Part shown: piece after piece, positions 43,124 to 54,088 of the stretch
Position numbering within the stretch: the stretch's first letter is position 1
Layout: the number at the start of each line of letters is the position of its first letter
NCBI GenBank assembly: GCA_937770485.1
Contig: CALJHX010000007.1
Span: 1 to 64,000, forward strand
Length of the DNA: 64,000 nt
Reading direction: 5' to 3'
Origin: an uncultured Verrucomicrobiae bacterium
Lineage (GTDB): Bacteria > Verrucomicrobiota > Verrucomicrobiia > Limisphaerales > UBA1096
Notes under the pieces: model-generated
Database searches by the model: none
The model's input: the letters and a program-made list of their open reading frames with translations, nothing else
Told to the model about the DNA's origin: nothing
Translations under genes and position numbers: made by a program

Positions 43124-44404
43124 ATGAACTCTGCACTTTTTAGTCGGCGACAAATGCTCAAGGTCGGAGCCTTGGGGGGGCTCACGCTGTCGCAATATAT
43201 GAGGCTACAGGCTAGCGCCAAGGAGCCATCGCAAAAACGGTCCGGTATTTTTATTTTTCTCGAGGGTGGCCCTTCTCATCAGGACACCTTCGATCTCAAG
43301 CCGAATGCACCGTCTGAATATCGCGGCGAGTTTAAGCCAATATCGACATCCGTTCCTGGCATTCAAATTTGTGAACACCTTCCTGAATTAGCCAAGCGCA
43401 TGAAGGACTACGCCATCATTCGTGGCCTTTCCCACACCCTGGCCGATCATGGGATTGGGAAAAAATATATGCTGACCGGAAATCGCCCGTCCCAAACCTT
43501 AAGCCACCCTGAATACGGCGCTGTTGTGAGCAAGGTCCATCCGTCCGCGCGCGACCTTCCGTCTTACGTTTCAATAGATGAATCGTTTGTGGGCCCTGGC
43601 TATCTTGGCAATGAATTCAGTGCACTCACAGCCAACAAGCCAACATTTGGGATTCCCTACAGCGTCCGCGGCATTTCGCTCGAGGACGGTCTGACCGTCG
43701 AAAAATACAATTCTCAAAAGAAACTTCTCGACGATCTCGATACCGCATTTCGTGGTTACGAAAATCTCGACGAACAAGTTCGTGGTCTTGACCGTTTCGG
43801 CGAGCAAGCGCACGACATCATCAGCTCTCCTACCACCCGAAAAGCGTTTGATCTTTCTCTGGAAAAAACATCTGAATTCACAAGGTTTGGTAGGCACGAG
43901 TTCGGCCAAAGCTTGCTGCTGGCTTCACGGTTGATTGAAGCCGGCGTACACTTTGTCACTGTTCGGCTCCGTCCGGCAGAGTTTGATTTCGACACCCACT
44001 TGGATAATTTTTCCAAGCTCAGCGCCCTGCTACCGCCTTTTGACAAAGGCCTGTCTTCATTGATAGATCGGCTGAAGGAGCGGGGCCTTTTTCGTTCCAC
44101 TGGAATCATGGTTGCCGGTGAATTTGGCCGAACACCAAAAATCAACAGCCAGGGCGGACGCGACCACTGGGCGCGCGCCATGTTTGCGCTGATGGCCGGA
44201 GGCGATGTCGAAGGAGGTCAAGTGATTGGTGAAACCGATGACCGCGCCGGGGCACCAGTCGGAAATGGATATTCTCCGGATGATCTGGCGGCGTCCTTCT
44301 TTCAAAACATAGGCATTAACTCAAAACACGAATTCCAAACCAACATCGGCCGCCCGATCAACCTCGTCCGCGACGGCAAACCTATTTCTCAACTGTTTTC
44401 ATGA
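43124..44404 (+). CDS. DUF1501 family protein
   Basis: SRRQMLKVGALGGLTLSQYMRL TAT-like start; FLEGGPSHQDTFDLKPNAPSEYRGEFKPISTSVPGIQICEHLPELAKRM; VAGEFGRTPKIN; GRDHWARAMFALMAGGDVEGGQVIGETD. Confidence 0.94.
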   Translation: MNSALFSRRQMLKVGALGGLTLSQYMRLQASAKEPSQKRSGIFIFLEGGPSHQDTFDLKPNAPSEYRGEFKPISTSVPGIQICEHLPELAKRMKDYAIIRGLSHTLADHGIGKKYMLTGNRPSQTLSHPEYGAVVSKVHPSARDLPSYVSIDESFVGPGYLGNEFSALTANKPTFGIPYSVRGISLEDGLTVEKYNSQKKLLDDLDTAFRGYENLDEQVRGLDRFGEQAHDIISSPTTRKAFDLSLEKTSEFTRFGRHEFGQSLLLASRLIEAGVHFVTVRLRPAEFDFDTHLDNFSKLSALLPPFDKGLSSLIDRLKERGLFRSTGIMVAGEFGRTPKINSQGGRDHWARAMFALMAGGDVEGGQVIGETDDRAGAPVGNGYSPDDLAASFFQNIGINSKHEFQTNIGRPINLVRDGKPISQLFS

Positions 44405-44940
44405 AACAATACATTACAGCAATCATAGCAGCTGCACTCCTTGTGGGATGCGGAGAAGCCCCGCCACCGAAACCTCCCGATATTTCCCTCTTTGAGGCGG
44501 CCGTAGCAGGCAATCTCGATGCGGTCAAACAGCACATCGCTGCGGGAACTGATTTGAATTTAAGAGATCCGAATCCCGTTGGCAATAAAGACACTGCATT
44601 GGGAATGGCGGCAGCGTTTGGCAAAACTGATGTGGCTATAGCACTAATCGAAGGGGGAGCTGATCTGGACACGAGAAACAAGGATGGATCCACGCCACTT
44701 CACGCAGCTTCTTTCTTATGTTACCCGGAAATCGTTCAAGCATTGGTGGACAAGGGAGCTGACAAGAACGCAAGAAACAATAGCGGCGGTACGGCCCTTG
44801 AAGGCGTCGAACTCCCATGGGCGGTAGCAAAGGGGATTTATGAGCTCCTTGATGGTATTTTATTTAAACCGCTTGGAGCTCCATTGGACTACGAACACAT
44901 CCAGGAGACACGCCCCGAAATTATCGAGATACTGCGCTAA
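44401..44940 (+). CDS. Ankyrin-repeat lipoprotein
   Basis: AIIAAALLVGCGEAPPPKPPDISLFEAAVAGNLDAVKQHIAAGTDLNLRDPN...GSTPLHAASFLCYPEIVQALVDKGADKNARNNSGGTAL. Confidence 0.86.
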   Translation: MKQYITAIIAAALLVGCGEAPPPKPPDISLFEAAVAGNLDAVKQHIAAGTDLNLRDPNPVGNKDTALGMAAAFGKTDVAIALIEGGADLDTRNKDGSTPLHAASFLCYPEIVQALVDKGADKNARNNSGGTALEGVELPWAVAKGIYELLDGILFKPLGAPLDYEHIQETRPEIIEILR

Positions 44941-45070
44941 TGAGTGAGGGAAGAGGCGATAGAATGTAACCAAATTTGAATGTTTCCTCTATAAAGTACT
45001 ATCCGCCTCTTTAGGCACAGCGTTATTGTGGAATAATTCCATAGACTAAACGTATTATTATACCAGATTT

Positions 45071-47950
45071 ATGAAACATAGATTCATTATACCGGTCGCA
45101 ACTGCACTCCTTTTGGGGTGCACAGGTTCGGAGGCTCCGGCCCCGGAAGCAGAACCTCAAATCACCCCAAAGACTTCAACGGAAGCTCCCGCTACAAACA
45201 TTGGCGGCAGCTTGAAGACATTGAAGCTCGACAATATTTTCCCTAGGGATCGGGTGCTTGAAGTTGACATCACTCTCGCCGACAAGGATTGGGACACGCT
45301 CCGTTATCAGTCGCGCAATTTTTTTGAGGCGCTGCAACCAAAGCGACAGTTTGAGGAGGTCGACTCCCCATACACCTATGTCGAGGCTAGCGTGACGATT
45401 GATGGCGTGTCGTTCTCCAACGTGGGCCTCCGCAAGAAGGGCTTTATCGGCTCGCAAAGCACTTCCCGGCCCTCGCTCAAGATTAAGCTGAATCACACCA
45501 ATAAAAAAGTCGGCATCGAAGGGGTGACCACTTTGACTTTTAACAACAACAACCAGGACAACACTCTGATGAGCCAGTTCATGGGCTATGAACTGTTCAA
45601 TGCCGCCGGCTCGCCCGCGTCCCGTTGTGCCCTGGCCAAAGTCACCGTCAACGGTGAAAACCTTGGAGTATATGCGCATGTAGAGAGCGTGAAAAAACAG
45701 TTGGCTAAGCGTGGCTTCGGAAACAGTAAAGGTACCCTGTACGAGGGGACAGTCGTGGACTTCCACGAGAACTGGGAGGGCAGTTTCGAGAAAAAGTTTG
45801 GAAAGGATAAGCCCGGCCGCGAGCACATTGTCAAGGTCATCAACGCGCTCAAGGGCAAAGATGGTGATATATTTTTTGGAGGGAAGGCAGCCGGTCGCGC
45901 CTTGGTGCCGACCAGTGACGAACACGACGGTAAGTGGGTCAAGCCGGCCTTTGAAGACTCCGCCTGGACCGCCGGTGAAAACGGAGCGGGCTATGAGCGT
46001 GAGGAGGGATACCAGCCGCTTATCAGTGATGGCTTTGATTTCGAGGAGCAAATGTACGGAAAGGCCACCTCGCTCTACCTGCGGTTCCCATTCAAGATCA
46101 ATGACCTTGAAAAAATAAAATCTGCGCCCTCCCTTTTACTTCGAATGAAGTGCGACGACGGTTTTATTGCTTATATTAACGGTCACGAGGTAGCTCGTTT
46201 AAATGCACCGGAAGTTGCCAAATGGGATTCTGTGGCGACCGGAAGTGGCAACGATCAGGCGTCAATGCAGTTTTCGGCATATGATATTTCTGACCACAAG
46301 GACAAGCTTCGCAAGGGAGAGAATATTTTGGCGATCCACGGCATGAATAACAGCGAAAGAAGCTCCGATCTGCTCTTCGTCGCCGAGTTACAGACGAATG
46401 ATTACGACTTGGAGAAGGAGATATGGAAACTCATAGATGAGGAGGCGTTTTACACTTTTTGGACTGTGGAAGGCCTGCTCAGTTTTTGGGACGGCTACTC
46501 CGGCAACCGAAACAATTTCTTTGTCTATCTCAACCCCGAAACCGACAAGTTCCATTTCCTGCCGTGGGGCGCCGACAGCATGTTTGAGAAATACAGCCCG
46601 CTCGGGGTCGATCGCCGATCGCCACGCTCCGTGCGCACCGTGGGCCTTGTGGCCCACAAGCTATACCAAATCCCGGCTGTCCGGAAAAAGTACGCCGCTA
46701 GCATGAAGAAACTCATGTCCTCACATTGGGACGAGGACAAACTCCTGGCCGAGACTGCGCGGGTCGAAGCCATGGTCGATCCGCATCTCTCCCGTGAACA
46801 GCGGCGCAAGGTCGATTACGAAAAAATCCGTCGTTTTATCCGCAATCGCCGCGCTGATGTCGAACGGGAAATCTCTGGCGAAGACATGCCACTATGGAGC
46901 GCTGCCCCGGAGCCACCGCCCGTGATCGGGGGTGAATGGGGGAGAAACAAGGGAAAAGGTGACGGCAAGGATTCGGAGAAAGATGGTAAATCTTCTGCCA
47001 AGGCCACTTCACTTTGGGACGCAGCCAGAACCGGTAATACTTCCCTGCTAAAGCAACTTTTGGACAAAGGGATGGATGTCAATGCCAAGGATGAGGGAGG
47101 CGGCACAGCGCTTAGCCTGGCGACCCTCGCCGGACACATAGAAGCGATGGAGTTTCTCATTAAGAAAGATGCCGATGTGAACCTTTCTGGCAATGATGGG
47201 AGCGCCCCACTTCACGGGGCCGCGTTCCTTGGTCAAGAGGGCGCCGCAAAACTGCTCGTTGAAGCCGGGGCAAACGTGAACGCGCGGAACAACAAGGGAG
47301 AGACTCCTATTGACTCCGGGGCCGCCGAGTGGAGCGAGGAGATGCAAGGAATCGTGGAGTTCATTTCTGCCATCGTCCAGGTCAAGACCGATGTCAACAA
47401 AGTGCGTGACGGTAGGCCCAAGGTCGTCGCCTTGCTGAAGGAGAACGGCGGCAAGGCTGGCAGTGATTTGGCTGGCAGCCTTGGCGGTCTTTGGGATGTC
47501 GCAAAAAACGGTGACTTGGCCAAGTTGCAGGAGGCTCTGTCCAAGGGCGCGGACGTGAACGGGCACGATGACAAGGGGATTACCCCATTGTCTTGGGCAG
47601 CAATGGCAGGCCAAACGGAAGCCGCGCAATTGCTCATCAAGAAGGGAGCCAAGATAAACGGCAAAAACAGAGATGGAGCAACGCCACTGCATGCATCTGC
47701 TTTTTTTGGGCAGACAGAAATTGTGGAGCTGCTTATAAAGAACAAGGCAAATTTAAATCTCACCAACGGCAAAGGAGAAACCCCAATGGATAGCGCATCC
47801 CATGGGTGGGATGAAATACAGGGCCTTATGCAGATTGTTGGGGGGATGCTACAAATGGAGGTAAACCTTGATCGCGCCAAGGCAGGTCGCTCCAAGATTG
47901 TCGATTTACTGAAAGAGAATGGCGGACGCAGCGGTGAGGATTTCCGTTGA
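45071..47950 (+). CDS. CotH-family lipoprotein with inserted beta-sandwich-like region and two C-terminal ankyrin modules
   Basis: LLLGCTGSEAP lipobox; CotH-like GLRKKGFIGSQSTSRPSLKIKLN...TLTFNNNNQDNTLMSQFMGYELFNAAGSPASRCALAKVTVNGENLGVYAHVESVKKQL and NFFVYLNPETDKFHFLPWGADSMF; ankyrin blocks start at LWDAARTGN (about 47010) and LWDVAKNGD (about 47500). Confidence 0.9.
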   Translation: MKHRFIIPVATALLLGCTGSEAPAPEAEPQITPKTSTEAPATNIGGSLKTLKLDNIFPRDRVLEVDITLADKDWDTLRYQSRNFFEALQPKRQFEEVDSPYTYVEASVTIDGVSFSNVGLRKKGFIGSQSTSRPSLKIKLNHTNKKVGIEGVTTLTFNNNNQDNTLMSQFMGYELFNAAGSPASRCALAKVTVNGENLGVYAHVESVKKQLAKRGFGNSKGTLYEGTVVDFHENWEGSFEKKFGKDKPGREHIVKVINALKGKDGDIFFGGKAAGRALVPTSDEHDGKWVKPAFEDSAWTAGENGAGYEREEGYQPLISDGFDFEEQMYGKATSLYLRFPFKINDLEKIKSAPSLLLRMKCDDGFIAYINGHEVARLNAPEVAKWDSVATGSGNDQASMQFSAYDISDHKDKLRKGENILAIHGMNNSERSSDLLFVAELQTNDYDLEKEIWKLIDEEAFYTFWTVEGLLSFWDGYSGNRNNFFVYLNPETDKFHFLPWGADSMFEKYSPLGVDRRSPRSVRTVGLVAHKLYQIPAVRKKYAASMKKLMSSHWDEDKLLAETARVEAMVDPHLSREQRRKVDYEKIRRFIRNRRADVEREISGEDMPLWSAAPEPPPVIGGEWGRNKGKGDGKDSEKDGKSSAKATSLWDAARTGNTSLLKQLLDKGMDVNAKDEGGGTALSLATLAGHIEAMEFLIKKDADVNLSGNDGSAPLHGAAFLGQEGAAKLLVEAGANVNARNNKGETPIDSGAAEWSEEMQGIVEFISAIVQVKTDVNKVRDGRPKVVALLKENGGKAGSDLAGSLGGLWDVAKNGDLAKLQEALSKGADVNGHDDKGITPLSWAAMAGQTEAAQLLIKKGAKINGKNRDGATPLHASAFFGQTEIVELLIKNKANLNLTNGKGETPMDSASHGWDEIQGLMQIVGGMLQMEVNLDRAKAGRSKIVDLLKENGGRSGEDFR

Positions 47951-48065: not shown

Positions 48066-49001
48066 ATGAGTGATAAACAATATGAAATGATTGGAGGCGA
48101 CGGTGAACAGTATGGGCCATTCACTCTTCAGGAATTGCAGGAAACTCTTTCACAAGGGCGAGCCGATACGCAAACACAGATAAGGGAAACAGGATCAGAA
48201 GGATGGCAGCCACTTGGTCAACTTCTTAATCTCAGCGAGCAGGGACAAGCCCACAAGCCATTGGGTGCAGCTGTTCTCAGTGACCAACCGTTGGATATCA
48301 GTTTGGCGTTAAGCAGTGGATGGGCATTATTTAAAGAGCACATGGGTATTATGGTAGGTGCAGGGGGAATCTATTTTGGCATTTTATTCGCCGCTATAAT
48401 GGTCGGCGCTATTATCCCATTCGCCAATATTTTCGTTCAAGGCCCTCTCACAGGAGGACTCATTATACTGACTCTTAACTTGTCCAGATACGATCAAGCT
48501 GACATAAGCGATATGTTTTTGGGTTTCAAAAATTATGGTTGGCTATTGCTTGTTACCTTGGTCCAGGGGGCTGTTATAGTCGCGGCTATAGTTCCAGGCG
48601 TGATTGTTCTGGTGGTCGGTGGCCTTCTTCCTGTAATGCAAGCCCAGCAGGCCGGAGGGACCCCGGAACTCGCCGGAACAAGCATCGCTTTATTAATCGT
48701 TGGTTTTCTCCTGTTATTAGTATTGGTGATGATTGCTGCGGTATGTACATATTTTTGGTTATTTTTAGTTGCTGACAAACGTGGAGAATTTGGAGAAGCC
48801 TTAGCCGCTGGCTATCGAGCAGGAAAAATGAACTTCTGGAGTATTTTAGGTTTGTCGATCTTGCTCGGCTTAGTTGTGATGGTCTCCGCTATCCCGTGCG
48901 GACTTGGGCTAATTTTCTCTATTCCTTGGTCTTTCGCTATTATGGCTAACGCCTACGAACAGATATTTTCTTCCTCTTTAGTGACTCGAGAGAGTGAATA
49001 G
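48066..49001 (+). CDS. GYF_2-domain integral membrane protein
   Basis: YEMIGGDGEQYGPFTLQELQETLSQGRADTQTQIRETGSEGWQPLGQLL, then multiple TMs. Confidence 0.82.
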   Translation: MSDKQYEMIGGDGEQYGPFTLQELQETLSQGRADTQTQIRETGSEGWQPLGQLLNLSEQGQAHKPLGAAVLSDQPLDISLALSSGWALFKEHMGIMVGAGGIYFGILFAAIMVGAIIPFANIFVQGPLTGGLIILTLNLSRYDQADISDMFLGFKNYGWLLLVTLVQGAVIVAAIVPGVIVLVVGGLLPVMQAQQAGGTPELAGTSIALLIVGFLLLLVLVMIAAVCTYFWLFLVADKRGEFGEALAAGYRAGKMNFWSILGLSILLGLVVMVSAIPCGLGLIFSIPWSFAIMANAYEQIFSSSLVTRESE

Positions 49002-50724
49002 CCCTTCCTTCTTAGCCAGCAAACGATACCACGATCTAGACGCCCTACGGGCGTTTGCCATGCTGCTTGGGATTGGGCTGCACGGCTTCATGTCTTTTGT
49101 GCCAATCCCGCTACCAGTCTGGCCCGCACAGGATGTCAACCAGCACAACGGCTTCCTGTTTGCGCTACACGCCATACACGGCTTCCGGTTGCAGCTCTTC
49201 TTTTTAGTCAGCGGTTTTTTTACAGCAATGATGTTCCGGCAGCGCGGACTGCGAGGACTGATCAATCATCGGGCCAAGCGCATCCTACTCCCTCTGGTGG
49301 TTTTCACAATTCTCCTTAGCCCCGCCATCATTAGCATCGGGATTTACGGCAACGCCCTCAGCGCGAAGCGCGAAGGCGGCGAGACAATCTGGTCAGCGGC
49401 TAAGTCGGGTGATGTCAACGCGATCCACCGGCACTTGGCCGAGGGGTCCGATGCAAGCCAGCCGGACGCCGCCGGACTCACTCCCCTCTCGTGGGCGGCG
49501 CTGCTTGGCCAAGCGGAAGCCGCCGAGGAACTCATCGATAGCGGTGCGGATGTTCACGCCACTGACAACGACGGCGCCACCGCACTTCACTGCGCCGCGT
49601 TTATGGGCGAAGCCGCAATGGTCCGACTGTTGGTCAAGAGCGGGGCTAACATTAACGCCCTCAGTGATGATGGAGGCACGCCGCTCTCTGCAATCCAAAC
49701 GGACGAAATAACCACCGAGTTCATTACATGGTTACTGCAGATACCCGTGGATTTAAAGAAAGTTGCCGCTGGTCGTATTGAAATCGGTGAGTTTTTGAAA
49801 GCCAAGGGGGCCCTCCCGAGCCAAGCTTTGATCGAGGATCCGATGGCTTGGCTCTATCCGCTCGTTCCTGGCTTCAAAACGATTCTCGATCAGCTGCCCG
49901 ACTGGGCTCAGGTTGCCGCGATTGCGCTGGCCATCAATTGGCTACTCGCGATCATTCCTATCTTTCAGCACCTGTGGTTTCTCTATTACCTCGTTTTGCT
50001 GATAACCGGTTACGCCGTGGTGACCTGGGTCGCGCGTAAACTTAACTGGAACCCGTTACCAGCGTGGATCGTCGATTCGCCACTGCGCCTGATATGGCTC
50101 GTGCCACTGACATTTGTCCCGCAGTTTTTCATGGTGACCGACTTCGGTCCGGACACCGCCGCGAGCCCCATCCCTTGGCCTCCCATGCTGGCGTACTATG
50201 CGGTCTTCTTTGGCTTTGGCGCGCTATGCCACGGTCAAAAAGCATTCGAGAATAGTATCGGTCGCCGTTGGCCGGTGTACATGCTGCTCGCCCTCCCAGC
50301 ACTACTGCTAGCGCTGCATTGGTATGAGCTTCGTGGCGGCATTTTCGTCACAAGTGAGTCGAAAGAATTGTCCCAGTTGTTGTACAACAACCTGCTTTGT
50401 ACATTGTTCACGGTGCTCTATGCATGGTTGATGATCTTTGGCTTCATCGGGATGTTCCGACAGTTTTTCTCCAAAGGAAACCGATGCATCCGCTACATGT
50501 CCGACTCATCATACTGGCTGTATGTGATGCATCTGCCGCCAATCATGTTACTACAAATCTGGATGAGCGGTTGGCCTTGGCCAAGCGCGATCAAGTTCCT
50601 CGCTATCTGCATGGTCAGCACGGGGGTGCTGCTCCTGATCTACGAGTACGCCGTCCGCTACACATTGATAGGCACAATGCTCAACGGGAAAAAAACCCGG
50701 TACAACCCTAACAGCTTCGGGTGA
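48994..50724 (+). CDS. Acyltransferase_3/OpgC-like membrane protein with an internal ankyrin module
   Basis: RYHDLDALRAFAMLLGIGLHGF and later TMs (IFQHLWFLYYLVLLI, SDSSYWLYVMHLPPIMLLQ) interrupted by ankyrins (ETIWSAAKSGDVNAIHRHLAEG... about 49375-49818). Confidence 0.88.
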   Translation: MNSPSFLASKRYHDLDALRAFAMLLGIGLHGFMSFVPIPLPVWPAQDVNQHNGFLFALHAIHGFRLQLFFLVSGFFTAMMFRQRGLRGLINHRAKRILLPLVVFTILLSPAIISIGIYGNALSAKREGGETIWSAAKSGDVNAIHRHLAEGSDASQPDAAGLTPLSWAALLGQAEAAEELIDSGADVHATDNDGATALHCAAFMGEAAMVRLLVKSGANINALSDDGGTPLSAIQTDEITTEFITWLLQIPVDLKKVAAGRIEIGEFLKAKGALPSQALIEDPMAWLYPLVPGFKTILDQLPDWAQVAAIALAINWLLAIIPIFQHLWFLYYLVLLITGYAVVTWVARKLNWNPLPAWIVDSPLRLIWLVPLTFVPQFFMVTDFGPDTAASPIPWPPMLAYYAVFFGFGALCHGQKAFENSIGRRWPVYMLLALPALLLALHWYELRGGIFVTSESKELSQLLYNNLLCTLFTVLYAWLMIFGFIGMFRQFFSKGNRCIRYMSDSSYWLYVMHLPPIMLLQIWMSGWPWPSAIKFLAICMVSTGVLLLIYEYAVRYTLIGTMLNGKKTRYNPNSFG

Positions 50725-50815: not shown

Positions 50816-51502
50816 ATGAACATTTTAAAACCCATGTGGAAAGCATTCGATATTGCCCTTGCGATGTCGGGGCTCCGGCTGGATGCCGGTCGTTATCTTT
50901 TTGCATGGATTCCGTTGCTTGGCGCGAGCGTCTGGCTGGGTTATCAGGCTGAGAGATCCGAGTGGCTTGTTCAGTACGCTATCAGCACATGGGTGTTTTA
51001 CTACGTTGGCATAAGCCTGATTCTCGGCACACGAATTAAGAGTGTTATGCTCAAAAAATTTGGTGCAAATAATGCCACTAAATTGTACGACATGATTTGC
51101 GGCCTGATGTTTTTCAATATCGGCTTAGGTGTTGCAGTAGTATCCCTACATTACGATGCGGCTATTCCAATGCCGCCGGCCATAAAATGGAGCCTTTTCG
51201 TCCTACTTACTGTGGTCGGTTTTGGAATCAAGTTTTGGGCAACATGGATCGTGGGCATAAATACTTATTATTTTCACGATTTGTTTTTGGAAAAATCTCA
51301 CGGCGAGTATACCGCTCGCGGCCCTTACAGGCGGTTGGCAAATCCAATGTACGGCGTCGGAAATTTCCATGCCTACGGCCCTGCTTTGATTACGGGATCC
51401 CTTATAGGCCTGTCGTTTGCACTTGCTTGCCACATGGGGATTTACGCATTCTACTTCATCGTCGAAAAACCATTCATCCGGCGAATATACCAATCCGACT
51501 AA
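50816..51502 (+). CDS. Integral membrane protein, possible isoprenylcysteine/phospholipid methyltransferase-like
   Basis: Multi-TM; C-terminal EYTARGPYRRLANPMYGVGNFHAYGPALITGS resembles the ICMT/PEMT RHPxY-type region. ATG at 50816 preferred over upstream GTG. Confidence 0.62.
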   Translation: MNILKPMWKAFDIALAMSGLRLDAGRYLFAWIPLLGASVWLGYQAERSEWLVQYAISTWVFYYVGISLILGTRIKSVMLKKFGANNATKLYDMICGLMFFNIGLGVAVVSLHYDAAIPMPPAIKWSLFVLLTVVGFGIKFWATWIVGINTYYFHDLFLEKSHGEYTARGPYRRLANPMYGVGNFHAYGPALITGSLIGLSFALACHMGIYAFYFIVEKPFIRRIYQSD

Positions 51503-51637
51503 GCCTTGAAAGCCGCCACTTATGCGGCAATAATCACGGCTGTAGCCACTCGGGACACCCTATCTCAACATAGCTTTTACGCGGGCCAGTTGTATTTAGC
51601 GGGAATAAAATCCGGGCCTGCGCGTAGTTGTATGTGA

Positions 51638-52153
51638 GTGACTGGTTTAAGGCTCAGACAAAACCTAAAGCTTAAGGATACTGACCTGGAGTCGCTGTCC
51701 TATCAGGGCTTTGGTGTTGCTATGCAGCTGCTAAAACACCGTGAAGATGCCTTAGATGTGGTGCAGGAATCTCTGCGAAAGCTCGTGCATGGCGGCCAGT
51801 ACAACGGAAAGCTTGGAACGCACCGATCCTGGTTTTTGATGGTCGTGCGGAACGGATCGTTGGATGTTCTACGCCGACGAAAGCCACACGACCCTGAGGC
51901 CTTGGCTAATCAAGCGGACAACAATAAAACCCCCGACGTTGCAACCGAGCGGAATGAACTGACAGAACTCCTAAAACAGGAGTTGAATTCCATGCCGCAG
52001 GATCAACAGGAAATTATCCTGCTTCGTGATCATCAGGACTTGAGCTACGCCGAAATCGCCGATGTGCTGGCCCTGCCTGCCGGCACGGTTATGAGCCGCC
52101 TGCACCGGGCTCGAAATGAACTAAGAAACCGTATGAAGAAGTATCTGCAATGA
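51638..52153 (+). CDS. ECF-type RNA polymerase sigma factor
   Basis: HREDALDVVQESLRKLVHGGQYNGKLGTHRSWFLMVVRNGSLDVLRRRK; ILLRDHQDLSYAEIADVLALPAGTVMSRLHRARNELR. Confidence 0.94.
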   Translation: MTGLRLRQNLKLKDTDLESLSYQGFGVAMQLLKHREDALDVVQESLRKLVHGGQYNGKLGTHRSWFLMVVRNGSLDVLRRRKPHDPEALANQADNNKTPDVATERNELTELLKQELNSMPQDQQEIILLRDHQDLSYAEIADVLALPAGTVMSRLHRARNELRNRMKKYLQ

Positions 52154-52602
52154 AACACGACTGCCAAGAAACCGAACTGTTAATTTCCGGCTACCTCGAT
52201 GGGGAACTGACCCAGTCCGACAGGCAGCGTGTGGATTTGATCTTGGAAGATTGCAGACAATGCACCGAAACTTACCAGGAAATGAAGAAATTCCGGGAAG
52301 GTGTGGGCGATATTCCTTTCGATAAACTGACTAAAAAAGAGAAAATGACCGTGAATAAATACGTAACAACAAACACGTGGGCAAACGTTGGGCAACTCAT
52401 GTTCATTATCCCTTTAATCCTTCTTTACGGAACCGGGGCGTTCCTTATGGTCGCCGGTGTGATCAATGACACGGAAGCCCCGTTATGGCTCAAGATCGGG
52501 CTACCTTCTATCATCTGTGGTCTCGGATTGATGGTCTTTACCGTGGTGGTCCAACGCATAAAAGCACACAAGACGGACAAGTATAAGGACGTCCAAATTT
52601 GA
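52150..52602 (+). CDS. Zinc-finger anti-sigma factor (zf-HC2-like) with two TMs and a KTDKYKDVQI tail
   Basis: HDCQETELLISGYLDGELTQSDRQRVDLILEDCRQC; overlaps the sigma gene by 4 nt; C-terminus IGLPSIICGLGLMVFTVVVQRIKAHKTDKYKDVQI. Confidence 0.86.
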   Translation: MKHDCQETELLISGYLDGELTQSDRQRVDLILEDCRQCTETYQEMKKFREGVGDIPFDKLTKKEKMTVNKYVTTNTWANVGQLMFIIPLILLYGTGAFLMVAGVINDTEAPLWLKIGLPSIICGLGLMVFTVVVQRIKAHKTDKYKDVQI

Positions 52603-53450
52603 TGAAACATCCATTCGAAGCATTTATTGTAGGTCTGTTCTTTGCTGCAACCATCGTGGCACAGGAACCCGACGCCGGACCGGCCTCTCCAGGGGACGAC
52701 ATCTGGACAGCGGCTCGCAAAGGCGATCTGACGGCACTTCAGCAACATATAAATGCCGGGATTGATATTGAAGCTCAGGATGAAGAGCATGAGTCCACTC
52801 CACTTCATCACGCTGCCTATTATGGTCAGGTTGAAACGGTGAAATGGCTTGTCGAAAAAGGCGCGGGGAAAAACGCACGCAACAACGATGGGATCACCCC
52901 ATTGGATGCTGCCTATGCTCGAATAGAATCCGATGAGTTTGACAGTGATGCCCGAAAGGCCAAGCGGGAAGTCGGCGAATACCTTGACAGTATCGGCGCG
53001 GAAAAAAAAGAAGTCCATTGGTATGATTTTTTGTGCTGCTTTAGTTGTCCGGCGTTGTTCATTTTCGGCATCCTTTACGCTGCATTCACCAAGCCCAAGC
53101 GGGAGGAGATTCCGACACCCTCAAAGCCGATCATGGTGACGACATCGCCTCAAATCGCCGGTAAAAAAGTAGTGCGCACGCTCGGACTGGTCCGGGGTAA
53201 TACCATTCGTGCCCGACATCTTGGGCGGGATATCATGGCTGGACTTCGGAATATCGTTGGGGGTGAGGTAACTGATTATGGAAAATTATTGGCTGAAAGC
53301 CGCGAACAGGCTCTCGACAGAATGTTGGCACAGGCCGATGAACTTGGAGCCAACGCTGTTATAGGCTTGCAGTTCCAGACCTCGGTCGTGATGGCAGGCG
53401 CTGCAGAAATGATGGCCTTTGGAACAGCAGTCGTGGCGGAAGATGCTTAA
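52602..53450 (+). CDS. Ankyrin-repeat / TM / YbjQ-domain fusion protein
   Basis: DIWTAARKGDLTALQQHINAGIDIEAQDEEHESTPLHHAAYYGQ...; TM FLCCFSCPALFIFGILYAAF; YbjQ-like VRTLGLVRGNTIRARHLGRDIMAGLRNIVGGEVTDYGKLLAESREQALDRMLAQADELGANAVIGLQFQTS. Confidence 0.86.
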   Translation: MKHPFEAFIVGLFFAATIVAQEPDAGPASPGDDIWTAARKGDLTALQQHINAGIDIEAQDEEHESTPLHHAAYYGQVETVKWLVEKGAGKNARNNDGITPLDAAYARIESDEFDSDARKAKREVGEYLDSIGAEKKEVHWYDFLCCFSCPALFIFGILYAAFTKPKREEIPTPSKPIMVTTSPQIAGKKVVRTLGLVRGNTIRARHLGRDIMAGLRNIVGGEVTDYGKLLAESREQALDRMLAQADELGANAVIGLQFQTSVVMAGAAEMMAFGTAVVAEDA

Positions 53451-53471
53451 ACACCTCAAAGACCAGATATT

Positions 53472-53753
53472 GTGAGTGAAAAAAAACTTGCGGAATCGGG
53501 GTCCAATATTGGTCAGTTCCTGCCCATTTTCGGCTGGATTCTTGTTTACGGTGTCGGCGCCTTTTGGTTATGCCAGGAAGTGATCACTGATGCGGAATTT
53601 GCCCGCACGGCAGATCCGGAGGATAAGGTGCCTTTTTTTATCCACTTCGGTGTGCCAACAATGATCATTGGAATTGGTATTCTGTTTTTTTCGGTGCTCT
53701 TCCAGCGCCTTAAAGCCGCCAAGACCGACAAATACATTGATGTCCAAATTTAA
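53472..53753 (+). CDS. Small two-TM protein with KTDKYIDVQI tail
   Basis: FGVPTMIIGIGILFFSVLFQRLKAAKTDKYIDVQI aligns with the C-terminus of the anti-sigma at 52150..52602. Confidence 0.72.
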   Translation: MSEKKLAESGSNIGQFLPIFGWILVYGVGAFWLCQEVITDAEFARTADPEDKVPFFIHFGVPTMIIGIGILFFSVLFQRLKAAKTDKYIDVQI

Positions 53754-53755
53754 AT

Positions 53756-54088
53756 ATGAGTGAGACCAATAAAATGATAGTTGTCACAACCCCCACTGTT
53801 CCAGAAAAAACCGTCGTGCGTACGCTTGGCCTTGTTCGTGGTAATACCATCCGTGCGCGCCATGTGGGCAAAGACATCATGGCGGGCCTCCGGAGCATCG
53901 TCGGCGGTGAAGTCACCGAATACGCCAAGTTGCTTGCCGAAAGCCGCGAGCAAGCGATCGACCGTATGACAGATCAGGCCGAAGAACTGGGTGCCAACGC
54001 CATCATTAGCGTGCAGTTTCAAACCTCGGTGATCATGAAGGGTGCCGCTGAGATGATGGCCTACGGCACTGCGGTCGTTGTGGAGTAA
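53756..54088 (+). CDS. YbjQ family protein
   Basis: VRTLGLVRGNTIRARHVGKDIMAGLRSIVGGEVTEYAKLLAESREQAIDRMTDQAEELGANAIISVQFQTSVIMKGAAEMMAYGTAVVVE. Confidence 0.92.
   Translation: MSETNKMIVVTTPTVPEKTVVRTLGLVRGNTIRARHVGKDIMAGLRSIVGGEVTEYAKLLAESREQAIDRMTDQAEELGANAIISVQFQTSVIMKGAAEMMAYGTAVVVE

Follow-up and report, generated by a model that had tools for sequence, protein, structure and literature searches.

The closest described counterparts of the locus analysed here are ECF sigma factors paired with class I (ASDI) membrane anti-sigma factors, and proteins of the YbjQ/UPF0145 family. We know of no established function for the latter, whose Pfam name (PF01906) refers to heavy-metal binding. The family occurs widely among bacteria and archaea (10 of 14 control genomes), and its solved structures 1VR4, 2GTC and 1Y2I are listed as pentamers with a fold shared with DUF1471 and RcsF (PMC4092069). 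Among ASDIs, non-zinc forms are common (PMC7406223). YbjQ goes unmentioned in two accounts of ECF and anti-sigma factors (PMC8103513, PMC7406223), and the literature searched, which leaves out most subscription journals, yielded no link between YbjQ and an anti-sigma factor. The sigma and anti-sigma families described below are known, whereas their constant YbjQ partner with its cognate tail did not turn up in that literature.

The window, a 64,000-nucleotide stretch of DNA from an uncultured Verrucomicrobiae bacterium (nearest named record found: a Pedosphaera MAG of marine origin, station ALOHA), carries on its forward strand a sigma factor gene followed by two related modules. The sigma gene (51638-52153) is directly preceded by a putative autoregulatory promoter, GGAATAAAATCCGGGCCTGCGCGTAGT (51602-51628), and encodes a protein of 171 residues with regions 2 and 4 only (Sigma70_r2, 9.4e-07; Sigma70_r4_2, 6.8e-16; TIGR02937, 88.4 bits against a cut-off of 42.9). 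We class it on these matches as an ECF sigma factor, with a putative ECF-type autoregulatory promoter assigned by motif and co-occurrence. It lies outside the span covered by the preliminary description (52150-54088), overlaps the anti-sigma gene by 4 bp and is part of the same unit as the anti-sigma and YbjQ genes. Copy B of the module comprises the anti-sigma factor (52150-52602; zf-HC2, two TM helices and a predicted cytoplasmic tail), ending AHKTDKYKDVQI with the tail KTDKYKDVQI at 52570-52599, and, overlapping it by 4 bp, a protein composed of a signal peptide, ankyrin repeats, a TM segment and YbjQ (52599-53450). Copy A consists of a standalone 93-residue protein with two TM helices and no zf-HC2 domain (53472-53753, GTG start), ending AAKTDKYIDVQI with the tail KTDKYIDVQI at 53721-53750, and, after a gap of 2 bp, a free YbjQ (53756-54088).

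The preliminary description had reported two such membrane proteins ending KTDKYxDVQI, each ahead of a YbjQ domain, and this holds: the reading frames are present, and Pfam finds zf-HC2 (3.6e-06), Ank and two YbjQ_1 domains (1.2e-34 and 1.4e-38) at the locus. The two YbjQ domains, the only ones found in the source genome, score 132.1 and 119.4 bits (cut-off 23). Their cores had been called near-identical, which applies to motif blocks only, the whole domains being 72-75% identical. Alignment of the two TM-tail regions gave a BLOSUM62 score of 171, compared with 26 ± 4.4 (maximum 45) for 300 shuffles, a likeness far above chance.

The predicted anti-sigma factor displays the class I architecture, with an N-terminal zf-HC2 domain (27.4 bits, cut-off 22.2), a sigma gene as neighbour and a membrane anchor of two hydrophobic segments. 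The Hx3Cx2C zinc motif is incomplete, the window protein reading LILEDCRQC, a CxxC with no His at -4; the distant members G402 and G468 read HLARCAAC and HLTRCAAC. Family knowledge suggests that the protein binds its cognate sigma factor. Hydropathy and charge place the zf-HC2 domain and the tail in the cytoplasm with an acidic loop outside and, for the ankyrin-TM-YbjQ protein, predict periplasmic ankyrin repeats and a cytoplasmic YbjQ domain. By analogy with the solved relatives, the window YbjQ would form a pentameric ring. A comparison of 32 YbjQ domains contains four cysteines in all and a single invariant histidine (His36), with no obvious metal site.

We surveyed the linkage of tail and YbjQ across Verrucomicrobiota. 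With the single two-TM protein as query, only two close relatives were recovered from contigs and the phylum search returned only chance-level matches, making a profile necessary. A TM-tail profile built from 16 rows was therefore run against three sets of genomes, covering the order (196), the phylum (388) and the genus (21). Matches reaching the tail numbered 28 in 25 of the 196 order genomes; the phylum search added four genomes and the genus search seven matches in six genomes. In each of the 39 cases, spread over 35 Verrucomicrobiota genomes, the gene immediately downstream of the match encodes YbjQ, as a TM-YbjQ fusion in G581, G511 and copy B. The preliminary description had proposed searching genomes for this pairing and had held that a tail not conserved beside YbjQ elsewhere would count against it; the tail is in fact kept there. 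The consensus is D-x-Y-x-[DEN]-[VI], the tail D and Y being invariant in the profile rows together with only one Pro and one Gly, and a weak tail-family neighbour in G407 has no D-x-Y. A DNA pattern for the tail (K[T/A]D[K/P/...]YxD/N-V/I) gave 20 matches in the 196 genomes. Fifteen fall inside a TM-tail/YbjQ module; the remaining five lie outside C-terminal membrane tails and have no YbjQ nearby. A chance origin of the motif is ruled out by this control. No tail partner was seen beside 20 ordinary YbjQs of the same order (36-43% identical), nor beside the YbjQs inspected on plasmids of other phyla, where the annotated partners are TM-anchored YbjQs. In a different pairing, a divergent YbjQ with a membrane anchor follows a soluble YbjQ; this was observed in Verrucomicrobiota as well as on Acinetobacter and Haliovirga plasmids.

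DNA upstream of the sigma gene from 11 genomes of three families could not be aligned save for GGAATAA and CGTA[GT]T, 14 bp apart and near the start codon. The exact motif GGAATAA-N14-CGTAKT stands ahead of the sigma gene in 13 of the 14 near-type genomes that have one, a count that is partly by construction, since the motif was first read from those upstream regions. In the remaining genome (G576) the sigma promoter carries one mismatch and the exact motif is found at a CotH gene instead, such that all 14 genomes contain it somewhere. The total was 20 matches versus 3 for a reversed control, of which a few may be chance given the small genome set. Two observations test the promoter independently: no sigma-less genome of the genus has it (0 of 7), and it recurs at the CotH gene. 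The motif is likely the cognate promoter of the ECF sigma factor, and the earlier term 'sigma-regulated' is borne out by a sigma gene within the unit and a motif that tracks its presence. In several genomes no more than about 8-12 bp separate the -10 element from the sigma start codon (51602-51640 in the window), suggesting a near-leaderless mRNA. G522 also has, upstream of the PEMT gene, a repeated segment similar to the promoter and 5' region of sigma (C228:4004-4030).

A further putative ECF promoter, GGAATAA-N14-CGTATT (45030-45056, forward strand), is located 14 bp ahead of the ATG start codon of a predicted target gene (45071-47950, forward strand) encoding a 959-residue lipoprotein with a CotH-kinase domain (PF08757, 1.9e-30) and C-terminal ankyrin repeats (Ank_2, 4.7e-37). 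This site occupies the same position in G576 and G388; the G585 copy agrees at 12 of 13 bases, and that of G447 has its -10 element cut by the contig end. The orthologues in four sigma-less relatives lack such a site. The CotH-Ank gene sits beside an ankyrin lipoprotein gene (44401-44940) and is conserved in the genus, with the promoter confined to sigma-bearing species. Two near-identical promoter-like sites of 27 bp occur in the source genome; one (G000:C1:43433), a third site besides those at the sigma and CotH-Ank genes, precedes an ankyrin lipoprotein gene and the other (G000:C2:40314) has no clear gene directly downstream. Between the CotH-Ank and sigma genes, on the same strand, are genes for a GYF-domain membrane protein (48066-49001), a probable passenger or target, an acyltransferase-3 protein with ankyrin repeats inserted between membrane segments (48994-50724) and a PEMT-like membrane methyltransferase (50816-51502), the latter two conserved in the genus. 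Ankyrin proteins are numerous in the cluster around 48994-50724.

We propose, with slightly more confidence than doubt, that the locus encodes an autoregulated ECF sigma/zf-HC2 anti-sigma system in which YbjQ is a third component contacting the anti-sigma tail. This proposal starts from the locus anatomy, the conserved linkage, the persistence of the TM-tail/YbjQ pair (described below) and the promoter's association with sigma. The zf-HC2 domain would hold the sigma factor in the cytoplasm, while the two TM helices would anchor the inhibitor and return its C-terminal tail to the cytoplasm, where a YbjQ oligomer may bind it; the sequence proposed to dock on YbjQ (53756-54088) is QRLKAAKTDKYIDVQI. 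Occupancy by YbjQ, or the state of its ring, might then alter the hold of the anti-sigma on sigma, or the stability of the anti-sigma itself. In the clade of the window, one YbjQ copy would have become fused to a periplasmic ankyrin-TM sensor, making ankyrin-TM-YbjQ a derived sensor subunit, and the second copy would have given the standalone tail protein and YbjQ pair; a ring possibly mixed with ankyrin-TM-YbjQ subunits may dock on the tail and so modulate the anti-sigma. Released sigma would read GGAATAA-N14-CGTAKT and drive its own operon and the neighbouring CotH/ankyrin envelope gene cluster, and sigma-less lineages would keep only a membrane-docked ring. AlphaFold2 models of the anti-sigma and of a tethered Ank-YbjQ/two-TM-tail read-through rested on alignments that were too shallow and reached pLDDT values of only 55 and 48, too low to interpret. 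The direction of control could differ from that drawn here, and the tail could instead act on sigma or on the membrane itself, with YbjQ merely co-transcribed.

In the preliminary description, a tandem duplication joined the TM-tail part of one copy to zf-HC2 and the YbjQ of the other to ankyrins, and the modules do stand in tandem in the source genome, G522 and G576. These are the only sampled genomes with a double module, however, and the zf-HC2-TM-tail protein, with an ECF sigma factor and YbjQ, occurs in 22 genomes of about ten families, 19 of which have a single module. Zf-HC2, TM helices and tail were thus likely the original protein, and the standalone two-TM gene likely a product of zf-HC2 loss, which reverses the order first assumed. 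Nor did duplication in the window lineage create the ankyrin fusion, as an ankyrin-TM-YbjQ protein follows an unduplicated anti-sigma gene in G581, a member of another family, with an ankyrin-TM part 43% identical to that of the window protein. The best YbjQ and TM trees place copy A (53472-54088) among the single-module relatives and leave copy B outside that group. A recent tandem duplication in the three genomes that carry both modules is disfavoured by this placement, although AU tests of one clade for both copies gave p values of 0.05-0.14 and hence no firm rejection. These AU values, and a zf-HC2 part of copy B that groups with same-genus anti-sigmas, would fit duplication within the genus with copy B diverging later. 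Taking tree placement and the G581 protein together, copy B is best seen as a module that is older or was borrowed rather than as a fresh fusion, and we regard the duplication and fusion scenario as very improbable.

The fate of the module where sigma has been lost bears on two other readings. Six genomes of the same genus (G503, G540, G565, G583, G588 and G589) retain the TM-tail protein and YbjQ while sigma and zf-HC2 are gone, and in G557, G430, G414 and G114 a 67-residue two-TM tail protein stands alone before YbjQ. The standalone gene appears to be under purifying selection where this is measurable, with pairwise dN/dS of 0.14-0.27 among close relatives; the more distant G503/G565 pair gives 0.07 near saturation. 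That the TM-tail/YbjQ pair is the unit surviving this loss argues for a direct functional link between its members. The same observations would suit a membrane-bound unit, for example a docked ring, in which the tail anchors YbjQ without signalling and the ECF/zf-HC2 pair only regulates its production. We give this reading some weight because soluble YbjQ pairs with TM-anchored YbjQ, with no sigma, in other genomes, which would make membrane recruitment the common theme, but consider it rather unlikely, as a tail carried on the anti-sigma itself in 22 genomes would be odd unless it informed the anti-sigma. Less probable still is that adjacency reflects co-transcription only, with YbjQ an output of the ECF regulon under stress and an unrelated role for the tail in sigma regulation, proteolysis or membrane insertion. 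Stop/start overlaps, shared operons and a putatively autoregulatory promoter could account for the gene order, yet tail and YbjQ stay linked where the sigma gene has disappeared along with its promoter, and YbjQs of the non-partner type have no tail next to them.

Returning to YbjQ as a third component of the sigma system, a short conserved anti-sigma tail that occurs beside YbjQ alone points to a role for the latter in signalling. More broadly, YbjQ rings may be cytoplasmic adaptors for short C-terminal tails of two-TM proteins, the commonest arrangement here gating an anti-sigma; we offer this tentatively, as somewhat short of probable. If true, it would provide a signalling function for a widespread family and a new class of third component for ECF systems. 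With a tail-bearing membrane anti-sigma as its strict partner throughout the lineage, and with a promoter and a target predicted, an orphan fold becomes a signalling component open to test. The locus is also a concrete example of an ECF system in Verrucomicrobiota, including a proposed binding peptide, receptor ring, promoter sequence and second target gene.

Compared with described systems, the window YbjQs belong by sequence to YbjQ/UPF0145 (PF01906), but differ from canonical members in forming a distinct subfamily that is tied to a membrane tail protein, has no conserved cysteines and includes one copy fused to ankyrin-TM. The locus resembles the tandem pairs of YbjQ and TM-anchored YbjQ (Acinetobacter and Haliovirga plasmids; G388:C47 and G423) in setting a soluble YbjQ beside a membrane-anchored partner. 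In those pairs the anchor is a second, divergent YbjQ domain and the stretches inspected contain no sigma or anti-sigma gene, whereas here the anchor is the two-TM tail protein. With ECF systems and their class I (ASDI/zf-HC2) membrane anti-sigma factors it shares overlapping genes, an N-terminal zf-HC2 domain, a TM anchor and a putative autoregulatory promoter of the GGAA/CGT type. Unlike those systems, it has two TM helices predicted to bring a conserved tail back into the cytoplasm, with a YbjQ gene as its constant third member.
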